Origin: a virus
DNA: 64,000 bases
Virus record (IMG/VR): IMGVR_UViG_3300046787_000408
Location: 235,984 to 299,983 of that record
Strand: one strand, 5' to 3'
Shown here: in pieces, positions 6,637 through 61,298 of the stretch
Position numbering within the stretch: the stretch's first letter is position 1
How the letters are laid out: each line of letters begins with the position of its first letter
Program-made: the position numbers and the translations under genes
The notes under the pieces: generated by a model
What the model saw: the letters and a program-made list of their open reading frames with translations, nothing else
Database searches by the model: none
What the model was told of the DNA's origin: nothing

Positions 6637-7708
6637 CTAGTTTTGCCTCATCTGGTTTTGGTAGCTTCTCTGGATTAGCTTCCCATGATGCTTTAGCCTG
6701 CTCGCCAATCTTGCCTTCGTATGGGCAAGGTGTACCTGCTGCTAGCATAGCATCAAACACTCTACGGTCCTGACACATAGTTGCCACAGCAGCTACTTTC
6801 ATTCCCATGTCGTACAAAGTCTTGCTTAACTTCAAGCGTTCACAATTCATATCACGTACTGTTCCGCCTGAACTTACGCCAAACACTTGTGTTTGTACGC
6901 TACCGGAACTGCCTGTTGAACATAGATCAGCATTACCACCACTTAACATAGCAGGTGCTACAGCAGTTGGTGGAGGTTGAATTACTCGCTGAGTAATAGT
7001 GCTTTCGTTAATGTTACGGTTGGTCATGTCACCAGTCTGCACGTTTTGATTCACTGCGGTACTGGTGTTAACGTTGTTGTTAACGTTGTTACTGGTTGAC
7101 GTAGACGTGTTGATATTACGGTTGGTCATGTCACCTGTGTTGACGTTGTTGTTGGTAGCCGTACTGGTGCTTACGTTGTTATTGTTGTTAGTAGCAGTGC
7201 TGACATTGTTGTTGTTGTAGGTCATTGTGCCACTATTGATATTGTGGTTGGTATTGGTGTTGTTGCTGGTACTAGAACTAACGTTGTTGTTGTTGTAGGT
7301 CATTGTGCCAGAGTTGACATTGTTGTTGTTGTAGGTCATTGTGCCAGAGTTGACATTGTTGTTGTTGACCGTGCTGGTACCCGAGTTGATATTGTTGTTG
7401 GTGTTAACACTGGTACTGGTATTAGTATTGGTGTTAGCACTGGTGCTATTGACCTGGGCAGTACTGTTGCTGTTTGACGTGCTGTTGGTGTTGCTGTTTG
7501 ACGTCACAGTGCTGGTACTGTTGCTGGTACTGTTGGTATCAACCAAGGTTGATGAATCGTAGGTCCCTTGATTGATCAACTGAGTGTTGTTGGTAGTAGT
7601 GCCGCCTGTGCTAGTGGCAGTACTGGTGTTGGTGGTTTGTGCGCCGACGGCTGCTACAAACACCAGGCTGGCTAGGCCCATGGCAATTTTTCTTTTCATT
7701 TTGCTCAC
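6572..7708 (-). CDS. exported Asn/Thr/Ser-rich repeat protein
   Basis: A 378-residue protein with an N-terminal signal peptide (KRKIAMGLASLVFVAAVGAQ). About 200 residues of low-complexity Asn-Thr-Ser repeats follow, with recurring NINSGTMTYNNNNV-like units of roughly 12-14 residues. A folded C-terminal domain of about 130 residues contains three Cys, and the end is hydrophobic. Repeated DNA in the middle makes length variation likely. It is the first gene of a minus-strand exported pair. An AATAAATA late-type box and an AAGGTGAG ribosome site precede it. Confidence 0.55.
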   Translation of the reverse strand: MSKMKRKIAMGLASLVFVAAVGAQTTNTSTATSTGGTTTNNTQLINQGTYDSSTLVDTNSTSNSTSTVTSNSNTNSTSNSNSTAQVNSTSANTNTNTSTSVNTNNNINSGTSTVNNNNVNSGTMTYNNNNVNSGTMTYNNNNVSSSTSNNTNTNHNINSGTMTYNNNNVSTATNNNNNVSTSTATNNNVNTGDMTNRNINTSTSTSNNVNNNVNTSTAVNQNVQTGDMTNRNINESTITQRVIQPPPTAVAPAMLSGGNADLCSTGSSGSVQTQVFGVSSGGTVRDMNCERLKLSKTLYDMGMKVAAVATMCQDRRVFDAMLAAGTPCPYEGKIGEQAKASWEANPEKLPKPDEAKLDDNYKKIGIGAILGVLVHKLF

Positions 7709-7730
7709 CTTATGGTTATTATTATGTTGA

Positions 7731-50383: not shown

Positions 50384-50448
50384 TATTGCTGTATGAAGCA
50401 AAGAGAAAAGGATTCAAGACGCGGGGGCAGTGCCCGCCAGGTCCACCA
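50384..50448 (+). ncRNA. ssrA: permuted tmRNA, acceptor (3') piece
   Basis: Ends GACGCGG then CCCGCCAGGTCC and ACCA, the standard tmRNA 3' tail. The T arm is GCGGG (50421-50425), loop GGCAGTG, CCCGC (50433-50437). CAGGTCC (50438-50444) pairs through all seven positions, with one G-U, with GGGCCTG at 50669-50675 downstream. The 3' half therefore precedes the 5' half, as in two-piece tmRNAs of alphaproteobacteria, some betaproteobacteria and cyanobacteria. The exact 5' end is not defined. The T loop lacks the usual TTCGA. Confidence 0.85.
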
Positions 50449-50460
50449 TAAGGAAGTTTG

Positions 50461-50667
50461 ATGAGTCGTAGTAGTCCATGGTTAAGTAAAGATAGTCCAA
50501 AAACTCTCAAGGAGTTTTATATTGAACTACACCCAGATTGGGTAGAGATTGATGGTCAGTACTTAACTGAGGATAGATGGAACGACATCGAACCAGAGAT
50601 ACTGGTTGCCATGAAGCGAGAATATGTTAAGTGTTCTGAACTTCTTGGTTGGCAAGTTTCTTTATGA
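50461..50667 (+). CDS. ORF inside the intervening segment of the permuted tmRNA gene
   Basis: A 68-residue ORF (MSRSSPWLSKDSPKTLKEFY start; in-frame TTG at 50458) with TAAGGAAG 5-6 bp upstream. It begins 13 bp after the CCA of the acceptor piece and stops 1 bp before the 5' end of the coding piece, filling the intervening segment exactly. The acidic C-terminal half includes WNDIEPEILVAMKREY. No family recognised. Translation of the precursor before RNA processing, or from the excised segment, is implied. Confidence 0.6.
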   Translation: MSRSSPWLSKDSPKTLKEFYIELHPDWVEIDGQYLTEDRWNDIEPEILVAMKREYVKCSELLGWQVSL

Positions 50668-50668
50668 T

Positions 50669-50880
50669 GGGCCTGACACAGGATCGATTGGGTCAAGAGT
50701 AACAGAGTGGACAGCACGGCATGCAATCACCGACACAAGATTCTGAATCAAGGCTAGTCTTTGGTAGTAGGAACGACTTGGAAAACGAAGTAAACAAATT
50801 AAACGCAAACGACTCACAGTTCGCATTGGCCGCCTAAACGTAGCCTAGGGTAAGACATACCTCGTAACAGAAACTCAAGG
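50669..50880 (+). ncRNA. ssrA: permuted tmRNA, coding (5') piece with tag ANDSQFALAA
   Basis: Begins GGGCCTG, pairing with the acceptor piece, followed by the GGATCGATTGGG stretch typical of the tmRNA D-like region. A tag reading frame starts at GCA 50805: codons for A-N-D-S-Q-F-A-L-A-A and TAA at 50835-50837. The ALAA end is the canonical proteolysis signal. A terminator follows at 50882. Tagging would rescue stalled ribosomes and mark products for ClpXP. Confidence 0.9.
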
Positions 50881-52592: not shown

Positions 52593-52602
52593 ATTGACAA
52601 AA

Positions 52603-52646
52603 AGAGCAACAAAATATTTGACTTTTGTTGCTCTGTCATATATACT
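52603..52646 (+). promoter_or_regulatory. terminator hairpin with a promoter embedded
   Basis: AGAGCAACAAAA (52603-52614) pairs with TTTTGTTGCTCT (52623-52634), a strong stem after the preceding gene. The same bases supply a promoter: TTGACT at 52618-52623, 17-bp spacer, TATACT at 52641-52646. The predicted start is about 52652, at an ATG. Confidence 0.6.
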
Positions 52647-52651
52647 ACACT

Positions 52652-52750
52652 ATGATGACAGCAATCGCAATCACGTTTAAAAACATACCTGCCAATTATG
52701 AGCAGGCCTATGAGCGCGATTGTATCTCGGGGCTTTGTCGTTGTAGTTAA
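52652..52750 (+). CDS. 32-residue leaderless ORF
   Basis: MMTAIAITFKNIPANYEQAY start, ending GLCRCS. The ATG falls where transcription from the TATACT at 52641 should begin, and a strong terminator follows, so this is a self-contained micro-gene. Three Cys at the C-terminus. Function unknown; it may instead be a regulatory RNA. Confidence 0.4.
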   Translation: MMTAIAITFKNIPANYEQAYERDCISGLCRCS

Positions 52751-52774
52751 CAAAAGTACTACATTCTACAAAGA

Positions 52775-52796
52775 CCCGCACATGATGCGGGTTTTT
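52775..52796 (+). terminator. intrinsic terminator
   Basis: CCCGCA-CATGA-TGCGGG stem followed by TTTTT. Ends the micro-gene at 52652. Confidence 0.85.
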
Positions 52797-52904
52797 CTTT
52801 ATGTACTAGACCAATAATTGAAAGAGTGTTACAATAGAAACAAGTTAGAGATACAGCGAAGTTTGCAAAGACCCTACAGTGATGCGGGGCTTTTGCAAAA
52901 CAAG

Positions 52905-52933
52905 TTGACCAGTATTGCACATCGTGTTATACT
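52905..52933 (+). promoter_or_regulatory. sigma70-type promoter in RNA island
   Basis: TTGACC at 52905-52910, 17-bp spacer, TATACT at 52928-52933. Confidence 0.65.
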
Positions 52934-53000
52934 AGAGGCTAGTTAGGAAGAACAACAACTGCTCCGGAAACGGTAGCACTGCTAGAAGACACAGAAGCAG

Positions 53001-53029
53001 TTGACAAATATTCCCAACAGTGTTATAAT
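53001..53029 (+). promoter_or_regulatory. sigma70-type promoter in RNA island
   Basis: TTGACA at 53001-53006, 17-bp spacer, TATAAT at 53024-53029. Followed by GCAAC/GTTGC hairpin near 53039-53061. Confidence 0.75.
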
Positions 53030-53174
53030 AAACACTTAGCAACAAACGATCGAGTAGTTGCGTAGAATTCCTTAAAAATTTACATGTATGATTACCCGGC
53101 AAGACAACACTTGACACGATTTTGATGTTCGGTGATAACAGTCCGTAATGCTGTGAAGCAAAACGTAGCCGGGG

Positions 53175-53292
53175 ATCATATAAAAATGCACATTAGTTAG
53201 AAAGTCCAGCTAAGTTGAGCGTCCCCTGTAAAACGGGGAAAGAGCTAGAATTGCAGGTTAGTATTGCTTTTGTGTGTTTTTATATGATTTTT
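53175..53292 (+). ncRNA. structured RNA closed by long inverted repeat
   Basis: ATCATATAAAAATGCACA (53175-53192) pairs with the segment 53271-53288 with two mismatches, followed by TTTT. Inside is CCCC-TGTAAAAC-GGGG. This looks like a small structured RNA with its own terminator; class unknown. Confidence 0.5.
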
Positions 53293-53295
53293 GAT

Positions 53296-53371
53296 GCACT
53301 ACTTGCCTGAGCGAAAAACTCGTGGTAAACTACAAGAGACAGAGGGTTCGAATCCCTGGGACTGGTAGTGT
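53296..53371 (+). other. tRNA-like element without CCA
   Basis: GCACTAC (53296-53302) pairs with GTAGTGT (53365-53371), and an AGGG-TTCGAAT-CCCT T arm is present. Extra bases lie between T arm and acceptor strand, no normal anticodon arm is visible and CCA is absent. Degenerate tRNA or a tRNA mimic. Confidence 0.35.
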
Positions 53372-53380
53372 GTCTTTTAT

Positions 53381-53851: not shown

Positions 53852-53857
53852 ATTTTT

Positions 53858-53997
53858 GTGGTAAGTTTGGTTGACAGGCTATTTGACTGTATGCGTAGCA
53901 GGATTGCAAACCCGAGGGGCATATGGCGATGGGAAGTGATATCACCCGTTTGTAAAAACAGATAGCTAGGCAGGTTCGAATCCTGTTTACTACACCA
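53858..53997 (+). other. oversized tRNA-like element, 140 nt
   Basis: GTGGTAA (53858-53864) pairs with TTACTAC (53987-53993), T arm GCAGG-TTCGAAT-CCTGT, then A-CCA. The 105-nt middle is about twice the normal length and contains a GTGATATCAC palindrome and GATTGCAAACC, a Cys-like anticodon stretch with poor pairing. Possible intervening sequence or pseudogene. Confidence 0.4.
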
Positions 53998-54004
53998 AGT
54001 TTAT

Positions 54005-54081
54005 GTCTGGGTCTGACATGGTGTTTCTGATGCGATTGATCACGCAAAGGAGAATGTGGCTCGATACCACGCCCGGCGCCA
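54005..54081 (+). other. tRNA-like element with 8-nt anticodon loop
   Basis: CCA-ended. T arm TGTGG-CTCGATA-CCACG. The acceptor stem pairs only with a bulged T. The best anticodon stem (TGCG/CGCA) leaves an 8-nt loop ATTGATCA. Either degenerate or a frame-altering tRNA form; Ile GAT is the nearest reading. Confidence 0.35.
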
Positions 54082-54284
54082 AATACTAAGGCAATAACAA
54101 GTACTAGAGTAGATGGAAACCGACCCATGCGAGACTGCGTGGGCTTCACACTTAGAATGTGACGATGCGAAAGTAAGTCGGTCCAGTAGGGTAAGGAAAA
54201 GTGTTGCTGGCGGAAAAAGCTGCTACCAGACAGAAGTTAAGCGGGCCTAGGCTGACAGTTTAACGCCGTGTACTCTGGAACTAA
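54082..54284 (+). ncRNA. structured spacer RNA
   Basis: No coding frame. CCGAC/GTCGG (near 54120 and 54178) encloses CCCATGC/GCGTGGG and TCACA-CTTAGAA-TGTGA hairpins. Consistent with a structured RNA of unknown class within the island. Confidence 0.4.
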
Positions 54285-54286
54285 TT

Positions 54287-54335
54287 TATGCTCTATTAGC
54301 TCAATTGGGAGAGGAAAGTAGAGCACGGACTAAAT
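54287..54335 (+). pseudogene. tRNA 5' half interrupted by the HNH gene
   Basis: GCTCTATTAGCTCAATTGGG and later TAGAGCACGGAC read as acceptor strand, D arm (with about 10 extra bases in the loop) and start of an anticodon stem. No 3' half follows before the HNH ORF. I read it as a tRNA destroyed by insertion. Confidence 0.4.
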
Positions 54336-54354
54336 ATAGTAGAGGTCTACTATG
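54336..54354 (+). promoter_or_regulatory. hairpin over the HNH gene start
   Basis: ATAGTAGA-GG-TCTACTAT (54336-54353) is a perfect 8-bp stem that contains the AGAGG ribosome site and the ATG at 54352. Sequestration of the start is a known way phages limit homing endonuclease expression. Confidence 0.55.
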
Positions 54355-54741
54355 TTAAAAATTTTTAAATGTCTTTACTGTCAAAAAGAAAATCCGTGCA
54401 AAAAGAATCACATGCACAAGTACTGCAATAATATGTGTCAGAGATTGCACAGCATTACCGAAGCGATGAATGGTGATTCTCCCACTAAAGGAGTTGCACA
54501 AAACTATATGCGGAAATTTGTTGAATACAAATGTGTACATTGTGGAATAGGTTCTGAGTACAACGATAAACCTATAACATTGCAAATTGATCATATTAAT
54601 GGAGTTCGGACTGATCACAGAAAAGTAAATCTGCGATGGTTATGCCCGAATTGTCATTCCCAAACTGAGACTTGGGGATATAAGAATGTTTCAGATGAAG
54701 GTAAACGCAAAATACAACTTGCGTTAAACGGTAAGAAATAG
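54352..54741 (+). CDS. HNH homing endonuclease-like protein
   Basis: A 129-residue protein with two Cys pairs (CLYC near 7, CVHC near 62), then LQIDHINGVRTDHRKVNLRW near 78-97 and CPNCHSQT near 99, the HNH core with zinc Cys. Such small HNH proteins are free-standing homing nucleases of phages. It lies between a tRNA 5' fragment and an intact tRNA-Asp, and its TAG stop overlaps the first base of that tRNA. Base composition is more AT-rich than the surrounding genes, in keeping with transfer. Confidence 0.85.
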   Translation: MLKIFKCLYCQKENPCKKNHMHKYCNNMCQRLHSITEAMNGDSPTKGVAQNYMRKFVEYKCVHCGIGSEYNDKPITLQIDHINGVRTDHRKVNLRWLCPNCHSQTETWGYKNVSDEGKRKIQLALNGKK

Positions 54742-54822: not shown

Positions 54823-54900
54823 GGGCGATGACTGTTGTAAAGGATAACAGGCGGCAGTAACTCTGCCGTGACAGTGGTTCGATTCCACTATCGTCCACCA
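54823..54900 (+). tRNA. tRNA-Val-like (AAC)
   Basis: Acceptor GGGCGAT/ATCGTCC, D stem CTGTT/AACAG, anticodon stem CGGCA/TGCCG, loop GTAACTC giving AAC, T arm AGTGG-TTCGATT-CCACT, CCA. All arms are good, yet A34 in a Val tRNA is rare in bacteria. Confidence 0.65.
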
Positions 54901-54907
54901 TGAATAT

Positions 54908-55016
54908 GGGTTGTCAAGGAAGGTCACATGCACGGTGAGTAGCCGTAGGAGCATTATCGAGTGTGCGCCACCGCACTCTTGGTCAGACATGGGTTCAAGT
55001 CCCATACAATCCACCA
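54908..55016 (+). other. oversized tRNA-like element, 109 nt
   Basis: Acceptor GGGTTGT/ACAATCC with A-CCA, T arm ATGGG-TTCAAGT-CCCAT. The 74-nt middle has GAGTG...CACTC and CGG...CCG hairpins but no standard D plus anticodon arrangement. Identity cannot be assigned. Confidence 0.4.
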
Positions 55017-55035
55017 AGTTTTGTTGTAGTGTTAG

Positions 55036-55117
55036 CAAGTGAAGTCACGCTAGCGAGGTTTCTTCGAAGGACCGAGTCAGTAGAAGGTTGCGGGTTCGAT
55101 GCCCGACTGGTCGCTTG
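55036..55117 (+). other. tRNA-Arg-like element (TCG) without CCA
   Basis: Acceptor CAAGTGA/TCGCTTG, anticodon stem GGTTT/GGACC, loop CTTCGAA giving TCG, T arm CGGG-TTCGATG-CCCG. The D region is a CGCTAGCG palindrome, extra bases sit between T arm and acceptor, and no CCA is encoded. Confidence 0.4.
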
Positions 55118-55251
55118 AGTGGGACTGGTATACATGATGGCGTATCAACTGGATGAATCTCAAGTAACGTACCGAGTCCTAGCCCGGGCTATATGCAAAT
55201 AGGTGAATGGTGTCAATAACGATGGTGACACTACTGCAACAAATTCAACAT

Positions 55252-55513: not shown

Positions 55514-55720
55514 AAAAGTTAAGCTGGCCTGCCTGCGTCTAAAACTCAATGACGATGGGCCCAACTACCAGGGACTCCAGTTGATCCACTGCCTCTGGGG
55601 ATTAAGTTGCCATGACTGCTAGTCACAGTCGAACCATGTTGGTGGAAGGAAGGGAGTGCAGTGATGTATTCCGTACCTTTAAACGCAGGGTAGTAGGCGG
55701 ATCAGTTTATCCAATTTGTG

Positions 55721-55749
55721 TTGACAAGCAATGTTGTTTGTCATACAAT
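55721..55749 (+). promoter_or_regulatory. sigma70-type promoter in RNA island
   Basis: TTGACA at 55721-55726, 17-bp spacer, TACAAT at 55744-55749. Confidence 0.7.
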
Positions 55750-55784
55750 AGATACTTAGACAGTAACAAAAGTCTTTAAACACA

Positions 55785-55876
55785 TGCACATCAAGGCGCC
55801 GTACACGCCGATGATATGTGGTATTCAGCACTGCCACTGGCAGTGTGAGGCAGGTTCGAATCCTGTATAGTGTGCA
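55785..55876 (+). other. tRNA-like element with type II arm, no CCA
   Basis: TGCACAT/GTGTGCA acceptor-like stem, D-like GGCG/CGCC, a perfect CACTGCC-ACT-GGCAGTG arm, and T arm GCAGG-TTCGAAT-CCTGT followed by three extra bases. No clear anticodon arm and no CCA. Confidence 0.35.
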
Positions 55877-55903
55877 GTTGTTTACAGATTTGGTAAAATT
55901 AGT

Positions 55904-55932
55904 TGTTGACAAGTTCAACAATTGATGTTACA
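55904..55932 (+). promoter_or_regulatory. promoter of the large structured RNA
   Basis: TTGACA, 17-bp spacer AGTTCAACAATTGATGT, TACAAT ending near 55932. Directly precedes the ornate RNA. Confidence 0.7.
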
Positions 55933-55939
55933 ATAAGAT

Positions 55940-56850
55940 TCCGGGGCAGTTTAATGTCCTACTAGGTAGCTTGCTATCTAGTGAAGAATAAGCTGAGTGA
56001 TCAGCCCAAAGGAGGTATGCCTACATAACTCCGCCAGCAATGGTTCGTTTAGACAAGCCTGCTCAGACTCGCGAGAGTCCCTTTACTGATAAGACCGGTG
56101 GAGGTAACAATGACGCTGGATGTTGTGGAAAGAACGTTTGCTTACCGGCCCGCAAGGGTAACCGGAGCAGATGGAAAGTAACAGGTGGTGCTGACTTCAC
56201 AACTAAACCAGTCCAGTTAATTGGTATGAGAAAGGGTAGTGTATTTGTCCGAGGTGTTGCAACCAAGGGCTCGTATGCAGTTTGAGTGGTTGGTGGATTG
56301 GCAGCAATGTCAAGACGCAGATCGCAAAAGACGACTGAGTAGTTCGCAAGACGAAAGGTACGTGGTGTGTTGTATTGTGTATTCCAAAAGAGTATGCAGC
56401 AACTGAGTCAGCACATCGCAGTAGGTTGTTATAAGCTAATGGTAAGCTAACTCCCTGTTAAGGAGTCGACTGCGGGTTCAACTCCCGCTAACGATTAAAA
56501 TGCAAAGACTGACTCGGTCGTATGTGAAAAGCATCTAATACTTGAGGCGCAAGCTAATCAAGTCAGACGTAACTCGCAAGGTGAAATCTGTTTATGCTGG
56601 AAGTTTCGTAAGGTGTTAGCGCACTTGAATGGCTCGCAAGGTCAACGGGATAGATGGCGTAGAATAGCATACGGCGACAAGACTACTGCCTGTCTTTAAA
56701 AACGGCGATGCTGATAGCAGACATGGATACCTGGCAACAGGGCTGTGTGGAAGTCGAGAGAAAGCTGGCTCGCAAGGCTGGTAATAATGCTCGAGGTGCT
56801 ATTGGGAGAGATGTATTCTCAGTCCTCCACTATTCTAAAACACATTACAT
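55940..56850 (+). ncRNA. large ornate structured RNA, GOLLD-like candidate
   Basis: About 0.9 kb with its own promoter and no convincing coding frame. It is full of short hairpins: CTAGGTAG-CTTG-CTATCTAG near 55960, ACTC-GCGA-GAGT near 56068, CCC-GCAA-GGG near 56151, and repeated CTCGCAAG GNRA loops near 56575, 56634 and 56770. A tRNA-Asn sits inside at 56425. Size, phage setting, tRNA neighbourhood and embedded tRNA recall GOLLD RNA (lake- and Lactobacillales-derived), but I cannot confirm the family without a covariance search. Ends are approximate. Confidence 0.6.
56425..56495 (+). tRNA. tRNA-Asn (GTT) embedded in large RNA
   Basis: Acceptor GTTGTTA/TAACGAT (two wobble pairs), D stem AGCT/AGCT, stem ACTCC/GGAGT, loop CTGTTAA giving GTT, T arm GCGGG-TTCAACT-CCCGC. 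No CCA encoded. It must be excised from, or function within, the surrounding transcript. Confidence 0.8.
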
Positions 56851-57062: not shown

Positions 57063-57091
57063 TTGACAACAATCACTAAGTAAAGTATAAT
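57063..57091 (+). promoter_or_regulatory. promoter of micro-gene
   Basis: TTGACA at 57063-57068, 17-bp spacer, TATAAT at 57086-57091. Confidence 0.75.
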
Positions 57092-57139
57092 TAACACTTG
57101 AACAGCAACAAAGCTGTTTGAGTAACCCAAGGAAACAAA

Positions 57140-57271
57140 ATGACTTCTATTACTTGTTCACTGTTAACCAAACAAATGCTCCAGGCGACACAAACCTGGT
57201 CGCACGCCTTTGGTCGCGTGAATAGTATTCCGGGAGTCTCAGGGTCTTGTGAAGGTGGTGGTTACGCATAA
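57140..57271 (+). CDS. 43-residue ORF with own promoter and terminator
   Basis: MTSITCSLLTKQMLQATQTW start, ending CEGGGYA. AAGGAAAC lies 5-6 bp before the ATG, a promoter is upstream and a strong terminator downstream, so this is a discrete expressed unit. Small, slightly polar, two Cys. The RNA also contains CAGGCGACACAAACCTGG-type pairing, so it could be a leader or RNA gene instead. Confidence 0.5.
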   Translation: MTSITCSLLTKQMLQATQTWSHAFGRVNSIPGVSGSCEGGGYA

Positions 57272-57297
57272 TAGCAGTAACTAACAAACTCAAAAGA

Positions 57298-57325
57298 CCC
57301 TGGAACTAAAAACTCCAGGGTTTTT
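57298..57325 (+). terminator. intrinsic terminator
   Basis: CCCTGGA ... TCCAGGG followed by TTTTT. Confidence 0.85.
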
Positions 57326-57466
57326 CTTTATGTGTAATGAGTAACGAGGACTCAGCCAGCACACTAAACTAGGCAAACGGGCGGACAGGACACATGAACG
57401 TGTGGTGAGAACACACTAGTAAGACTCCTGGTCGGGGTATCAACCCCGTCATGTGGTGTAGCAATA

Positions 57467-57511: not shown

Positions 57512-57586
57512 GGGCTGTTAGTGATAGTGGTAGCACAGTGGCTTTGCAAGCCTCGGGCAGGAGTTCGATTCTCCTACGGTCCACCA
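57512..57586 (+). tRNA. tRNA-Ala (TGC)
   Basis: Acceptor GGGCTGT/ACGGTCC, loop TTTGCAA, anticodon TGC, CCA. Confidence 0.85.
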
Positions 57587-57595
57587 TATGTTAAT

Positions 57596-57670
57596 GTATC
57601 TCTGGTGTAATGGCAGCATCGCGGATTCCAAATCCGTTAGGTCAGGGTTCGAGTCCTTGGGGGTACGCCA
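57596..57670 (+). tRNA. tRNA-Trp (CCA)
   Basis: Acceptor GTATCTC/GGGGTAC, stem GCGGA/TCCGT, loop TTCCAAA, anticodon CCA, G-CCA. Confidence 0.85.
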
Positions 57671-57678
57671 ATTTTTGT

Positions 57679-57752
57679 TCGGGAATGGTGTAGAGGTAAC
57701 ACAACAGACTTTGACTCTGTCGTCCCTGGTTCGATCCCAGGTTCCCGTGCCA
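57679..57752 (+). tRNA. tRNA-Gln (TTG)
   Basis: TCGGGAA with TTCCCGT leaves a weak 1-72 position, usual for tRNA-Gln. Stem ACAGA/TCTGT, loop CTTTGAC, anticodon TTG, CCA. Confidence 0.85.
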
Positions 57753-57760
57753 GTTTTTGT

Positions 57761-57836
57761 GGGGGTATAGCTCATCTGGTAGAGCAGGTGCTTTGCAAGC
57801 ATCAGGTGGCAGGTTCGAGTCCTGTTGCCTCCACCA
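57761..57836 (+). tRNA. tRNA-Ala (TGC), second copy
   Basis: Acceptor GGGGGTA/TGCCTCC, stem GGTGC/GCATC, loop TTTGCAA, CCA. Confidence 0.9.
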
Positions 57837-57837
57837 T

Positions 57838-57912
57838 AGCCGTGTAGCTCAGAGGAAGAGCGCTGTCTTGATAAGGCATAGGTCGACATTTCGAAATTGT
57901 CCATGGCTACCA
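57838..57912 (+). tRNA. tRNA-Ile (GAT)
   Basis: Acceptor AGCCGTG/CATGGCT, loop TTGATAA, anticodon GAT, CCA; starts 1 nt after the preceding CCA. Confidence 0.85.
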
Positions 57913-57920
57913 ATTTTTAT

Positions 57921-57999
57921 TCCGAGAAACTCGAGCAAGGTGCATGAGCTTGACTGTTAATCAATGGTTAGGTGGGTTCGATTCCCACACTCGGAGCCA
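57921..57999 (+). tRNA. tRNA-Asn (GTT)
   Basis: TCCGAGA/ACTCGGA, loop CTGTTAA, anticodon GTT, T arm GTGGG-TTCGATT-CCCAC, G-CCA. Confidence 0.8.
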
Positions 58000-58041
58000 A
58001 TTTTTTTGTAGTAGGCGAGAGTGCCTACTAAGTAGTTTACT

Positions 58042-58131
58042 GGTGCGGTCCTATAATGGTATTAGAGCAGATTGCTAATCTGTCGCTCGGCGTAATCCGG
58101 GTTCTGAGTTCGAGTCTCAGTCGCACCGCCA
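58042..58131 (+). tRNA. tRNA-Ser (GCT)
   Basis: Acceptor GGTGCGG/TCGCACC, loop TTGCTAA, anticodon GCT, long variable arm, G-CCA. Confidence 0.9.
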
Positions 58132-58139
58132 GACAACAT

Positions 58140-58215
<76 letters not shown>

Positions 58216-58222
58216 TGTTTGT

Positions 58223-58297
58223 TCCTCGATAGCTCAGTGGTAGAGTGCCGGACTGTTAATCCGTTGGTCCCTGGTTCGAGCCCAGGTCGAGGAGCCA
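58223..58297 (+). tRNA. tRNA-Asn (GTT), further copy
   Basis: Acceptor TCCTCGA/TCGAGGA, stem CCGGA/TCCGT, loop CTGTTAA, G-CCA. Confidence 0.92.
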
Positions 58298-58304
58298 TAA
58301 TTTA

Positions 58305-58379
58305 GCCCTTGTATCCTTAGTGGTAGAGGTCCTGTTTTGTAAGCAGGGTGTGGTGGTTCGATTCCATCCTGGGGCACCA
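58305..58379 (+). tRNA. tRNA-Thr (TGT)
   Basis: Acceptor GCCCTTG/CTGGGGC (one mismatch), stem CCTGT/GCAGG, loop TTTGTAA, CCA. Confidence 0.85.
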
Positions 58380-58434
58380 CAAACATAGTCAATACTCTCC
58401 CTTGACGAGCTAGGTCACTAGACTATTTTCTTTC

Positions 58435-58508
58435 GCCCTATTAGTATAATGGTATTACACCTGTTTTGTAATCAGGTTACGGCAGTTCGATTCTGTCATG
58501 GGGCACCA
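58435..58508 (+). tRNA. tRNA-Thr (TGT), second copy
   Basis: Acceptor GCCCTAT/ATGGGGC, loop TTTGTAA, CCA. A 55-nt spacer before it holds no gene that I can see. Confidence 0.88.
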
Positions 58509-58559
58509 CTTTCAAGCCTATACTCAATCCTGCCGTGACGACTGTCCCTGGGCTTTTAT

Positions 58560-58636
58560 CTTTGTATGGCGCAGCCTGGTAGCGCACTAGTCTGGGGGAC
58601 TAGGGGTCGCAGGTTCGAACCCTGCTACAAAGACCA
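58560..58636 (+). tRNA. tRNA-Pro (GGG)
   Basis: Acceptor CTTTGTA/TACAAAG, stem CTAGT/ACTAG, loop CTGGGGG, anticodon GGG, CCA. Confidence 0.9.
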
Positions 58637-58645
58637 ACTTTCAAT

Positions 58646-58723
58646 CTCTGTGTAATGTCAATCTGGTAGACGGCCTGATCTGGAGTCAGGAGGCTGTACG
58701 TTCGAATCGTACCATGGAGACCA
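58646..58723 (+). tRNA. tRNA-Pro-like (TGG) with C33
   Basis: Acceptor CTCTGTG/CATGGAG, stem CCTGA/TCAGG, loop TCTGGAG. The centre reads TGG, but position 33 is C instead of the near-universal U. CCA encoded. Confidence 0.7.
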
Positions 58724-58730
58724 ATTCAAC

Positions 58731-58806
58731 GCCGCGGTAGCTCATCAGGTAGAGCAGCAGACTGAAAATCTGTGTGTGGCTGGTTCGAGTCCAGCTCGTG
58801 GCACCA
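58731..58806 (+). tRNA. tRNA-Phe (GAA)
   Basis: Acceptor GCCGCGG/TCGTGGC, stem GCAGA/TCTGT, loop CTGAAAA, CCA. Confidence 0.92.
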
Positions 58807-58812
58807 TTTTAT

Positions 58813-58890
58813 CCTTGAGTTAAGCGGGGCCGTATACACCCTTGCCAATAGAGTTAGTAATGTGTTCTGCAACAGACACCTCAGGGGCCA
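58813..58890 (+). other. tRNA-like element without T loop
   Basis: CCTTGAG/CTCAGGG acceptor, G discriminator and CCA are intact, but the expected T arm is replaced by a GTGTTCTG-CAA-CAGACAC hairpin with no TTCGA and no clear anticodon arm. A CCA-ended mimic or decayed tRNA. Confidence 0.4.
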
Positions 58891-58899
58891 ATTTACGAT

Positions 58900-58977
58900 G
58901 CGTCTCTAGTTCAACTGGATAGAACACCGGCCTACGAAGCCGTGAGGTTGGGGATTCGAATTCCTCGGGACGCACCA
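58900..58977 (+). tRNA. tRNA-Arg (ACG)
   Basis: Acceptor GCGTCTC/GGGACGC, stem CCGGC/GCCGT, loop CTACGAA, anticodon ACG (inosine-type), CCA. Confidence 0.9.
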
Positions 58978-58985
58978 AAAAACAG

Positions 58986-59014
58986 TTGACAACATTCTGT
59001 AATTGTTGTATAAT
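58986..59014 (+). promoter_or_regulatory. sigma70-type promoter
   Basis: TTGACA at 58986-58991, 17-bp spacer, TATAAT at 59009-59014. Drives the next tRNA block. Confidence 0.75.
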
Positions 59015-59041
59015 TAGAACTTAAACAAAAGAGGTAACACT

Positions 59042-59065
59042 ATGAAACGTTCAGGTAAACGATAG
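59042..59065 (+). CDS. 7-codon ORF (leader peptide candidate)
   Basis: ATG-AAA-CGT-TCA-GGT-AAA-CGA-TAG encodes MKRSGKR, with AGAGGTAAC as a ribosome site, directly after a promoter and ahead of Lys and Arg tRNAs. The basic composition matches those tRNAs, suggesting an attenuation-like leader, but it could be chance. Confidence 0.35.
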   Translation: MKRSGKR

Positions 59066-59127
59066 TGTCATCCTAGACCCCCGTATGGTCCTGGATGGCA
59101 CGTAAAAGACAATTCTTTACGATCCAT

Positions 59128-59204
59128 CCCTTCAAGATGTTACTGGTTAGCATACCGGACTCTTAATCCGAGAAGTCTGAGTTCGAATCTCAGTGGAGGG
59201 ACCA
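59128..59204 (+). tRNA. tRNA-Lys (CTT)
   Basis: Acceptor CCCTTCA/TGGAGGG, stem CCGGA/TCCGA, loop CTCTTAA, CCA. Confidence 0.88.
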
Positions 59205-59207
59205 TAT

Positions 59208-59285
59208 GGGGGTATAGTGTTAACGGTTTAGCACAGCGGACTTTTAATCCGCCAGGTCAGGGTTCGAATCCCTGTGCCCCTACCA
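59208..59285 (+). tRNA. tRNA-Lys (TTT)
   Basis: Acceptor GGGGGTA/TGCCCCT, stem GCGGA/TCCGC, loop CTTTTAA, CCA. Confidence 0.92.
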
Positions 59286-59400
59286 TATGCAAACACATTA
59301 ACCTGCGAAAAAGAATTCCGATGCATAATCGGCCAGTGTATAGTGTGTTTACATATGGTATTAATCTATCGACGGGTAGACACCATGCTGGGGAGTAATT
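59286..59400 (+). ncRNA. structured spacer with CAAACACA/TGTGTTT stem
   Basis: No coding frame. AAACACA near 59289 pairs with TGTGTTT near 59345, enclosing CCGA-TGCATAA-TCGG, which looks like a Met-type anticodon arm lacking U33. Possibly a decayed tRNA or small RNA. Confidence 0.3.
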
Positions 59401-59411
59401 AACCTCAGGAA

Positions 59412-59482
59412 CTCGCGGTCTTCTAAGTGGTAAGAAAGCCCCGTTATGGGGGTGAATGCAGGTTCGAACCCTGCCCGCAATG
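59412..59482 (+). pseudogene. degenerate tRNA (Ile TAT-like)
   Basis: D arm TTCT/AGAA and T arm GCAGG-TTCGAAC-CCTGC are good. The acceptor CTCGCGG/CCGCAAT has two mismatches, the anticodon stem pairs weakly and no CCA is present. Confidence 0.4.
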
Positions 59483-59503
59483 AGTTTGCTAGACTTCTTT
59501 GGT

Positions 59504-59578
59504 GTGGCTATGTTGTAACGGTTAGCAACAGAGATTGTGATTCTCTTAGTCTGGGTTCGATTCCCAGTAGTCACCCCA
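59504..59578 (+). tRNA. tRNA-His (GTG)
   Basis: Acceptor GTGGCTA/TAGTCAC with C73, stem AGAGA/TCTCT, loop TTGTGAT, CCA. Flanking CTTTGG and CCAAAG extend the helix so that the CCA is itself paired with the 5' leader. Confidence 0.9.
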
Positions 59579-59588
59579 AAGAGGTTTT

Positions 59589-59663
59589 GGTTGTATGGCG
59601 TAGACGGATGCGCACGGGCTTCATAAGCCCAGGAGGTTGGATCGATACCAACTACAACCACCA
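59589..59663 (+). tRNA. tRNA-Met or Ile2 (CAT)
   Basis: Acceptor GGTTGTA/TACAACC, loop TTCATAA, T arm GTTGG-ATCGATA-CCAAC, CCA. Together with 46074, one of the two may be Ile2. Confidence 0.85.
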
Positions 59664-59664
59664 C

Positions 59665-59739
59665 GGGTCTTTAGTTCAACGGATAGAATGCCATGCTTCG
59701 AACTTGGCGATGTGGGTTCGATTCCTGCAGGACCCGCCA
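59665..59739 (+). tRNA. tRNA-Arg (TCG)
   Basis: Acceptor GGGTCTT/AGGACCC, loop CTTCGAA, anticodon TCG, G-CCA. Confidence 0.85.
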
Positions 59740-59747
59740 AACAACAG

Positions 59748-59776
59748 TTGACAAATAAACATGCTTGCGTTATAAT
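59748..59776 (+). promoter_or_regulatory. sigma70-type promoter
   Basis: TTGACA at 59748-59753, 17-bp spacer, TATAAT at 59771-59776. Drives the last tRNA block. Confidence 0.75.
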
Positions 59777-59814
59777 ACAAGCTGTTCTTTAAAAACTTAA
59801 TTCAAGATTAAAGT

Positions 59815-59888
59815 GCCTGGGTAGTTAAATGGTATAACAAGCGGCTGATAACCGCTAATCACAAGTTCAATTCTTGTCCTAGGTACCA
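59815..59888 (+). tRNA. tRNA-Ile (GAT), second copy
   Basis: Acceptor GCCTGGG/CCTAGGT, stem AGCGG/CCGCT, loop CTGATAA, CCA. Confidence 0.9.
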
Positions 59889-59889
59889 A

Positions 59890-60060
59890 TTAAAACTTTT
59901 CAATGAAATTCATGGCGTCTTCCATGCTGGTAAAATATCGCATGGTCAGGCGTTCGTTGTAAATATCATTGACAAAGATGTAACACACAGAACCTGTGTC
60001 GTTGACGCTCAAGTGTATTTGTACACTGCCGTTAGCTGCAATAAAGTTTCTTGTTCGCAT
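59890..60060 (-). CDS. small minus-strand hypothetical protein between tRNAs
   Basis: A 56-residue ORF (MRTRNFIAANGSVQIHLSVN start, ending EDAMNFIEKF) exactly filling the gap between two plus-strand tRNAs. The pattern of alternating hydrophobics looks like a real small beta protein. There is no clear ribosome site. A longer frame upstream runs through tRNA sequence and is unlikely. Confidence 0.5.
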   Translation of the reverse strand: MRTRNFIAANGSVQIHLSVNDTGSVCYIFVNDIYNERLTMRYFTSMEDAMNFIEKF

Positions 60061-60072
60061 CGTGTATTTAAC

Positions 60073-60146
60073 GCGGGGTTGGTATAGTGGCTGTGCTCTA
60101 GCCTTCCAAGCTAGTGAGACGAGTTCGATCCTCGTACCCCGCTCCA
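60073..60146 (+). tRNA. tRNA-Gly (TCC)
   Basis: Acceptor GCGGGGT/ACCCCGC, stem CTAGC/GCTAG, loop CTTCCAA, T-CCA. Confidence 0.92.
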
Positions 60147-60153
60147 TATTTTT

Positions 60154-60229
60154 GCCTGGTTGCGCAGAGAGGTTATGCATCTCCTTTACACGGAGAACGA
60201 TGTCAGTTCGAGTCTGACACCAGGTACCA
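60154..60229 (+). tRNA. tRNA-Val (TAC)
   Basis: Acceptor GCCTGGT/ACCAGGT, stem TCTCC/GGAGA, loop TTTACAC, CCA. Confidence 0.92.
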
Positions 60230-60238
60230 GTTAGTTTT

Positions 60239-60312
60239 CTCGGTATGGTGAAATGGTATCACTGAACGTTTGGGACGTTCGAGCGTAGGTTCGATTCCTG
60301 CTACCGAGACCA
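60239..60312 (+). tRNA. tRNA-Pro (TGG)
   Basis: Acceptor CTCGGTA/TACCGAG, stem GAACG/CGTTC, loop TTTGGGA, CCA. Confidence 0.9.
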
Positions 60313-60457
60313 AGAGCAGCGTATGAGTTACATCATTCAGTATGAGTCACAAGGTACCGCGGTAAATCCTTGGGCAAGCAATAGTACGTACATCAATGTA
60401 ACAGGTGGTAGTGATCTACTAACGGGCCAGCCTCAAAAATTGTGTCCACCAATCTAT

Positions 60458-60535
60458 GCACAGGTGGCGGAGAGGCCCAACGCAAGGGATTGCAAATCCC
60501 TAAAACCGTGAGTTCAAATCTCACCCTGTGCTCCA
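60458..60535 (+). tRNA. tRNA-Cys (GCA)
   Basis: Acceptor GCACAGG/CCTGTGC, stem AGGGA/TCCCT, loop TTGCAAA, T-CCA. The 145-nt spacer before it contains a weak 62-codon frame that runs into this tRNA and which I reject. Confidence 0.9.
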
Positions 60536-60541
60536 AACAAC

Positions 60542-60633
60542 GGAAAGTAATGCAGCGGGGATGGTCCTGCGACTGGCCTTGAAAACCAGGTTCTCTTAAC
60601 AGGGATGGGGTTCGACTCCTCTGCTTTCCGCCA
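60542..60633 (+). tRNA. tRNA-Ser (TGA)
   Basis: Acceptor GGAAAGT/GCTTTCC, loop CTTGAAA, anticodon TGA, long variable arm, G-CCA. Confidence 0.88.
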
Positions 60634-60658
60634 ATAAGTAAGTGCAAAGGATTTAGTG

Positions 60659-60832
60659 ATGGAAAACAAAACACAACTATTTGAAAACAAGATCACTCTT
60701 GAGCGCTACATTTGCGACAATGTTCGCATGGTTCGCACACTTGAAGGACAAGAGTTCCTGAGTGTACGTCGAGAAGGCGAAACTCGCAAATTTTTAATTC
60801 GTCGAGACAGTTTGCGTCAAGTAAACAGTTAA
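60659..60832 (+). CDS. small hypothetical protein within tRNA array
   Basis: A 57-residue basic protein (MENKTQLFENKITLERYICD start) with AAAGGA about 12 bp upstream. It reads as a small beta-sheet protein with charged ends (RREGETRKFLIRRDSLRQ). The stop is immediately followed by tRNA-Arg. Fits a co-transcribed gene inside the array; function unknown. Confidence 0.6.
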   Translation: MENKTQLFENKITLERYICDNVRMVRTLEGQEFLSVRREGETRKFLIRRDSLRQVNS

Positions 60833-60907
60833 GTCTCTATAGTTCAATGGATAGAACAAGTTCCTCCTAAGAATTAGATACAGGTTCGATTCCTGTTGGA
60901 GACACCA
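60833..60907 (+). tRNA. tRNA-Arg (CCT)
   Basis: Acceptor GTCTCTA/TGGAGAC, stem AGTTC/GAATT, loop CTCCTAA, CCA. Starts on the base after the upstream stop codon. Confidence 0.9.
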
Positions 60908-60914
60908 AACAAAT

Positions 60915-60999
60915 GCGTTAGTGGTGGAATGGTATACACGTTGGTCTTAGAAGCCAATGCCCTAGTGGATTGAGAGTTCGAGTCTCTCCTGACGCACCA
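60915..60999 (+). tRNA. tRNA-Leu (TAG)
   Basis: Acceptor GCGTTAG/CTGACGC, stem TTGGT/GCCAA, loop CTTAGAA, type II variable arm, CCA. Confidence 0.92.
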
Positions 61000-61050
61000 T
61001 GAACTCGCTTTTGCTGACAGCGTATAATAGGACAAGTAGTCAGCACACTT

Positions 61051-61124
61051 AGGTCATTAGCTCAAAGGTAGAGCGCTTGGTCGACATCCAAGATACAGCG
61101 GATCGATACCGTTATGACCTACCA
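61051..61124 (+). tRNA. tRNA-Val (GAC) with C33
   Basis: Acceptor AGGTCAT/ATGACCT, stem CTTGG/CCAAG, loop TCGACAT, anticodon GAC with C at position 33, T loop ATCGATA, CCA. TATAAT at 61023-61028 may be part of a weak promoter upstream. Confidence 0.8.
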
Positions 61125-61131
61125 AACACAT

Positions 61132-61208
61132 GCCCCGGTGGTGGAATTGGTAGACACGCAACGTTGAGGTCGTTGTATCTGTGGGTTCGAGTCCCATCTG
61201 GGGTACCA
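61132..61208 (+). tRNA. tRNA-Leu (GAG)
   Basis: Acceptor GCCCCGG/CTGGGGT, stem CAACG/CGTTG, loop TTGAGGT, CCA. Confidence 0.9.
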
Positions 61209-61214
61209 AACAAC

Positions 61215-61298
61215 GCGACTGTGGTGGAATGGTATACACAGCAGACTTAAAATCTGCCGCTTAATTGATTGAGGGTTCAAGTCCCTCCAGTCGCACCA
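61215..61298 (+). tRNA. tRNA-Leu (TAA)
   Basis: Acceptor GCGACTG/CAGTCGC, stem GCAGA/TCTGC, loop CTTAAAA, type II variable arm, CCA. Confidence 0.92.

Follow-up and report, generated by a model that had tools for sequence, protein, structure and literature searches.

Judging by its sequence, the RNA encoded at 55904-56850 genuinely belongs to GOLLD, one of the known classes of giant phage RNA, whose members assemble into hollow cages. It lies in the tRNA island of a jumbo phage, and the tRNA embedded in its linker has very probably been kept as a structural tRNA-body domain and not as a tRNA for translation. The novelty is comparative: in most of the relatives, the embedded tRNA appears at a fixed place, bracketed by a helix, with its body kept and its acceptor end mostly lost. 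The cage structure of GOLLD has been solved but no function has been assigned to it, so that these acceptor-less linker tRNAs are of value in narrowing the possible functions and in naming partners. The window, that is, the whole 64-kb stretch of DNA that was analysed, belongs to a 299,983-base virus record in which this is the only GOLLD copy. The main features are collected in the table.

With regard to the identity of the RNA, the whole window was scanned by cmscan against all 4227 Rfam families. The GOLLD model (RF02032) matches on the plus strand over its full length (model positions 1-416) with 192.6 bits, above the gathering score of 150 bits that serves as its cut-off. In the same scan there was no match to ROOL, nor to any other Rfam family explaining the RNA, and these candidates were ruled out. 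The first-pass annotation, made without database searches, had likened the locus to GOLLD and proposed a search with the GOLLD and ROOL models; the likeness is borne out, with GOLLD as the answer. The other marks of the class found here are a structured 5' domain, a length above 800 nt (∼850-890 nt, in keeping with the roughly 0.9 kb of the locus), and a phage location by a tRNA island. The class is further defined by a 14-mer cage with D7 symmetry and by expression that rises during phage lysis.

Features of the GOLLD locus and its surroundings (window positions)
Feature	Position	Strand	Remarks
Sigma-70-type promoter, TTGACA-17-TACAAT	55906..55934	+	predicted; 11/12 consensus positions
5' domain of GOLLD RNA (cage cap by homology)	55985..56361	+	∼50 relatives, many compensatory pairs; outside Rfam model
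CGCAAG (GCAA tetraloop)	56151..56156; more at 56345, 56548, 56575, 56635, 56771	+	6 copies
3' domain, RF02032 match	56362..56825	+	interrupted by the tRNA
Bracketing 7-bp helix, 5' strand GAGTCAG	56405..56411	+	alignment of 45 homologues
GOLLD linker	56412..56508	+	inside the cage in the env-38 cryo-EM structure (PMC12286853)
Embedded tRNA-body domain, tRNA-Asn-like	56425..56496	+	body 56425-56495; anticodon GTT 56457-56459; N73 = T at 56496; no CCA
Bracketing 7-bp helix, 3' strand CTGACTC	56509..56515	+	alignment of 45 homologues
Downstream part of tRNA array	57512..61298	+	tRNA scan
Ordinary tRNA-Asn(GTT) ending GCCA	58223-58297	+	tRNA scan

The limits first drawn for the RNA are correct within tens of bases, since homology is conserved over ∼55985-56831 and 45 non-redundant homologues, taken from contigs of metagenomic phages, align over 55980-56836. 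The promoter proposed at its 5' end, from which the transcript would be expected to start near 55942, is weak evidence when considered alone, because a scan of the region finds 4 promoter-like sites against 2.6 in shuffles. It gains from the homologues: an upstream site scoring at least 10 occurs in 29% of the 45, as compared to 1% of shuffled sequences. No U-run terminator was found downstream of the GOLLD RNA. The repeated tetraloop hairpins described at the outset are real, with six copies of CGCAAG in 55904-56850 (mean of 0.32 and maximum of 2 in shuffles) and three exact copies of CTCGCAAG. As for the supposed lack of a coding frame, an 81-aa ORF does exist in the 5' half (56040-56285), yet it is not conserved as a frame: among 44 homologues, the length of this stretch differs by a non-multiple of three in 32, and an in-frame stop interrupts it in 36. 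The predicted fold of the stretch 55942-56836 exceeds 20 shuffles in stability (z = -2.46), a value that is weak taken alone.

Stronger than folding energy is the record of compensatory change, which had been named as a check and proves extensive. Scanning IMG/VR with one motif of the 3' domain gave 52 contigs, every one with a match to GOLLD that in 51 cases exceeds the cut-off; other clades were added by looser motif scans and then confirmed with the GOLLD family model. The window can be aligned with some 50 relatives, at 62-87% identity once near copies are removed, and this set is valuable for covariation analysis in being large and in spanning the whole 5' domain, for which there is no Rfam model. 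When 45 sequences were aligned with MAFFT, RNAalifold gave 221 predicted pairs; in 171 of them, pairs of the 5' half among these, at least one sequence has both sides changed with pairing retained. Covariation contributes -53.16 of the total of -221.96 kcal/mol. Plasmids gave no GOLLD match, 16 of 60 genome-contig records found with a broad motif were tested and none matched, and host genomes from two classes (394 and 369 genomes) gave none above the cut-off and one weak match; the second of these searches gave no signal anywhere and so leaves absence unproven.

The surroundings of the gene deserve some attention. The window holds 38 tRNA genes, in an array that surrounds the GOLLD gene. The betaproteobacterial host first proposed is no more than a candidate: the phage DNA polymerase is closest to that of Sinorhizobium phage Phosso (50.7% identity), for the nicotinamide phosphoribosyl transferase the nearest counterpart is in Acidovorax phage ACP17 (58.8%), and a permuted tmRNA at 50387-50837 (RF04321, 97.4 bits), with a tag that by eye ends in ANDSQFALAA, is not decisive. 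A 69-aa ORF (50458-50667) is situated between the two halves of this tmRNA. The array includes an HNH endonuclease gene (54352-54741); mycobacterial GOLLD clusters likewise contain one, according to excerpts of PMC6582537. At 57063-57330, a perfect sigma-70 promoter (12/12) is followed by a 43-codon ORF from 57140 and then by a hairpin and a T-run, possibly a small-protein gene inside the array. A degenerate tRNA-like element, recognised by eye at 55782-55877, has a good T arm and a long variable-arm hairpin, and is called neither by ARAGORN nor by Rfam. Lastly, long inter-tRNA stretches (52593-53380, 53852-54351, 54900-55250, and 55514-55900) have no convincing ORFs or Rfam matches and possibly hold other structured RNAs.

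The linker is the part of the RNA where the tRNA resides, in the variable part of the RF02032 model. The position of the linker tRNA is fixed in most relatives, where it mostly ends 4-6 bases 5' of GCAAAG. The helix that brackets the linker forms without exception in the 45 homologues (315 of 315 cells), covarying with up to four pair types per position, while partners slid out of register pair in 25-35%. Over a wider set of 105 GOLLDs, 93 carry upstream an exact reverse complement of the 6-mer that follows the linker, as against 4.7 for shuffled 6-mers. This helix overlaps and crosses a neighbouring one and is therefore missing from nested predictions; it may answer to a pseudoknot in the published GOLLD structure. 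The same layout recurs at a great distance: on an actinobacterial genome contig (L257), a GOLLD scoring 144.5 bits, just below the cut-off of 150, has a linker tRNA at 1568-1640 with anticodon TCA, no CCA, and a mismatched acceptor, bracketed by GGAAGAG/CTCTTCC.

What, then, is the embedded tRNA? The window copy scores 62.4 bits with the Rfam tRNA model and has the cloverleaf of a tRNA-Asn, with U33 and a purine at 37 in the anticodon loop CTGTTAA; it lacks the G73 and the encoded CCA of a functional tRNA-Asn, AAAATG coming next, just as the initial description of a tRNA-Asn without CCA had it. All seven acceptor pairs can form in this copy, two of them as G-U, and for this reason the loss of the acceptor end is judged from the relatives and not from the window sequence itself.

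A linker tRNA was parsed in 79 of 110 GOLLD loci, yielding 61 unique sequences that are mutually related and not independent. The reference set was 801 unique free tRNAs from the same contigs, collected with ARAGORN, a program biased to paired acceptors. In the embedded tRNAs, the three outer acceptor pairs are formed in about 43-44, 49-56, and 59-60% of cases, i.e., at the level of shuffled columns (48, 52, and 49%), as opposed to 91, 95, and 96% in free tRNAs; even when only the copies detected by ARAGORN are counted, the values are 48, 61, and 68%. The inner four acceptor pairs are instead formed in 86-97% (shuffled, 46-69%; free tRNAs, 90-97%). The D, anticodon, and T stems reach 97-100% pairing, as opposed to 64-75% after shuffling; the high value is partly by construction because the parser scores these stems, but the MAFFT/RNAalifold analysis, independent of the parser, also finds compensatory changes in them. 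The bases that mark the tertiary L shape (U8, A14, GG, U33, and purine 37) are retained, and some lineages are degenerate, with altered T or D loops. A bias of the anticodons to U36 (ANN codons), striking in the first set, was lost when other clades were added and is not claimed; the excess of Asn and Lys among them is probably due to descent.

These data make it very unlikely that the element is an ordinary phage tRNA gene, excised from the GOLLD transcript, completed with CCA by a host enzyme, and used in translation. Its intact cloverleaf, the presence of U33 and of a purine at 37 in 98% of the embedded copies each, the seven acceptor pairs available to the window copy, and the CCA-like ends retained by two relatives (L255 and L256) would all suit such a gene. 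Yet the outer acceptor pairs lie at shuffle level, CCA is encoded in 2 of the 61 embedded sequences as against 767 of the 801 free neighbours, G73 occurs in none of 20 embedded GTT copies but in 23 of 24 free tRNA-Asn, anticodon loops of 8-9 nt are found in 7 of 61, and the window already has a complete, CCA-bearing tRNA-Asn at 58223.

Another possibility, rather unlikely, is that the tRNA body directs processing, with RNase P or RNase Z cleaving GOLLD there into two pieces joined by the bracketing helix, in a manner comparable to the two-piece permuted tmRNA. Seven base pairs would indeed keep the halves joined, and RNase Z prefers tRNAs lacking CCA, so the absent CCA suits it. The idea also finds an echo in one relative (L239, IMGVR_UViG_3300009154_000117), whose GOLLD linker carries at 7600-7720 a circularly permuted tRNA-Leu-like element in the order T arm, 3' acceptor strand with encoded ACCA, short loop, 5' acceptor strand, D arm, and anticodon arm. 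However, the substrate feature read by both enzymes is the acceptor stacked on the T stem; the outer acceptor pairs are not kept, and many GOLLDs do without any linker tRNA. The permuted case stands alone, as the same criteria gave no other in 257 loci (1.77 Mb) and IMG/VR contigs held no relative of its sequence.

The history of the linker tRNA has been eventful. In a tree built from 60 non-redundant 3' domains, 14 GOLLDs have no recognisable linker tRNA, and its presence entails 8-9 changes, 7-8 of which are forced by well-supported branches. By this tree the linker tRNA was acquired or shed seven times or more, and it is thus dispensable for the class. Most of the embedded copies are old, because no close full-length relative of them, the window copy included, exists among the free tRNAs. 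Such turnover, together with the degenerate T or D loops of several lineages and the supply of donors in the surrounding array, could mean that the linker tolerates the insertion of tRNA genes without effect and that the embedded tRNAs decay there as neutral passengers. This is decidedly unlikely, since compensatory changes preserve the three arms and the inner acceptor pairs across GOLLDs with up to 38% of positions different from the window, and neutral decay would not retain the arms while the acceptor tip is lost.

If the embedded tRNA is a structural tRNA-body domain, how might it be used? Because its body and anticodon loop are kept and its accepting end is not, it is better read as bound than as charged, and its most likely use would be that of a bait or docking handle for a tRNA-binding partner. 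Should the window RNA assemble like env-38, whose 14 copies close into a cage around the linkers, there would be 14 tRNA bodies on the luminal side. On the structural reading, selection keeps the L-shaped body and the anticodon loop, and not the end that accepts the amino acid, and a partner (the ribosome, a tRNA-modifying enzyme, or an anticodon nuclease) would be held on or within the cage during the late phase of infection, each particular partner having a probability of less than half. A wider proposal, rather doubtful as a whole, is that the GOLLD cages of many phages bear acceptor-less tRNA bodies on inward linkers, captured several times and once permuted, as an internal bait for a tRNA-binding host factor, e.g., ribosomes or an anti-phage anticodon nuclease. 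A decoy role is plausible because phage tRNAs counter tRNA-targeting defences elsewhere, as excerpts of PMC10264068 and PMC11555353 relate. If true, the internal bait would provide the first testable function for GOLLD.

Among known systems, the ROOL nanocage shares with GOLLD the large size, the location by phage tRNA islands, the cage, and an internal disordered linker, whereas sequence and fold are unrelated. Permuted tmRNA and tRNA genes resemble the element of L239 in that the 3' half precedes the 5' half and the two are joined across the acceptor end; the latter differs from them in that a phage GOLLD linker houses it, which makes it a naturally occurring permuted tRNA of a phage contig. 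The window copy is not permuted. Closer is the mycobacterial GOLLD, which excerpts of PMC6582537 place in a large tRNA cluster with a "pseudo tRNA" within the gene, for which separate expression was not seen. The tRNA-like element and the cluster are thus common to both, whereas the host group and the sequence are others, and in those excerpts the acceptor end is not analysed across relatives. L257, the single actinobacterial locus of this analysis, has a layout in agreement with it. The suggestion of a possible new subclass finds support only in part: a linker tRNA as such is no novelty for GOLLD, being reported in what was consulted of PMC12286853 and PMC6582537; those portions mention neither the degenerate acceptor end nor the permuted variant, and earlier reports on the acceptor end may exist.

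The nearest system is the env-38 GOLLD (Kretsch et al. 2025, PMC12286853), a closed 14-mer by cryo-EM with its linker inside. The same paper states that tRNAs are sometimes present in the linker, and that ribosomes were pulled down with GOLLD. Like the window RNA, env-38 combines a conserved 3' domain with a separate structured 5' domain, exceeds 800 nt, belongs to a phage tRNA island, and has its variable linker in the same place. The difference is in the linker itself: in env-38 it is 42 nt long, disordered, and unresolved (residues 497-538), whereas in the window it consists of a tRNA body with its conserved bracketing helix.
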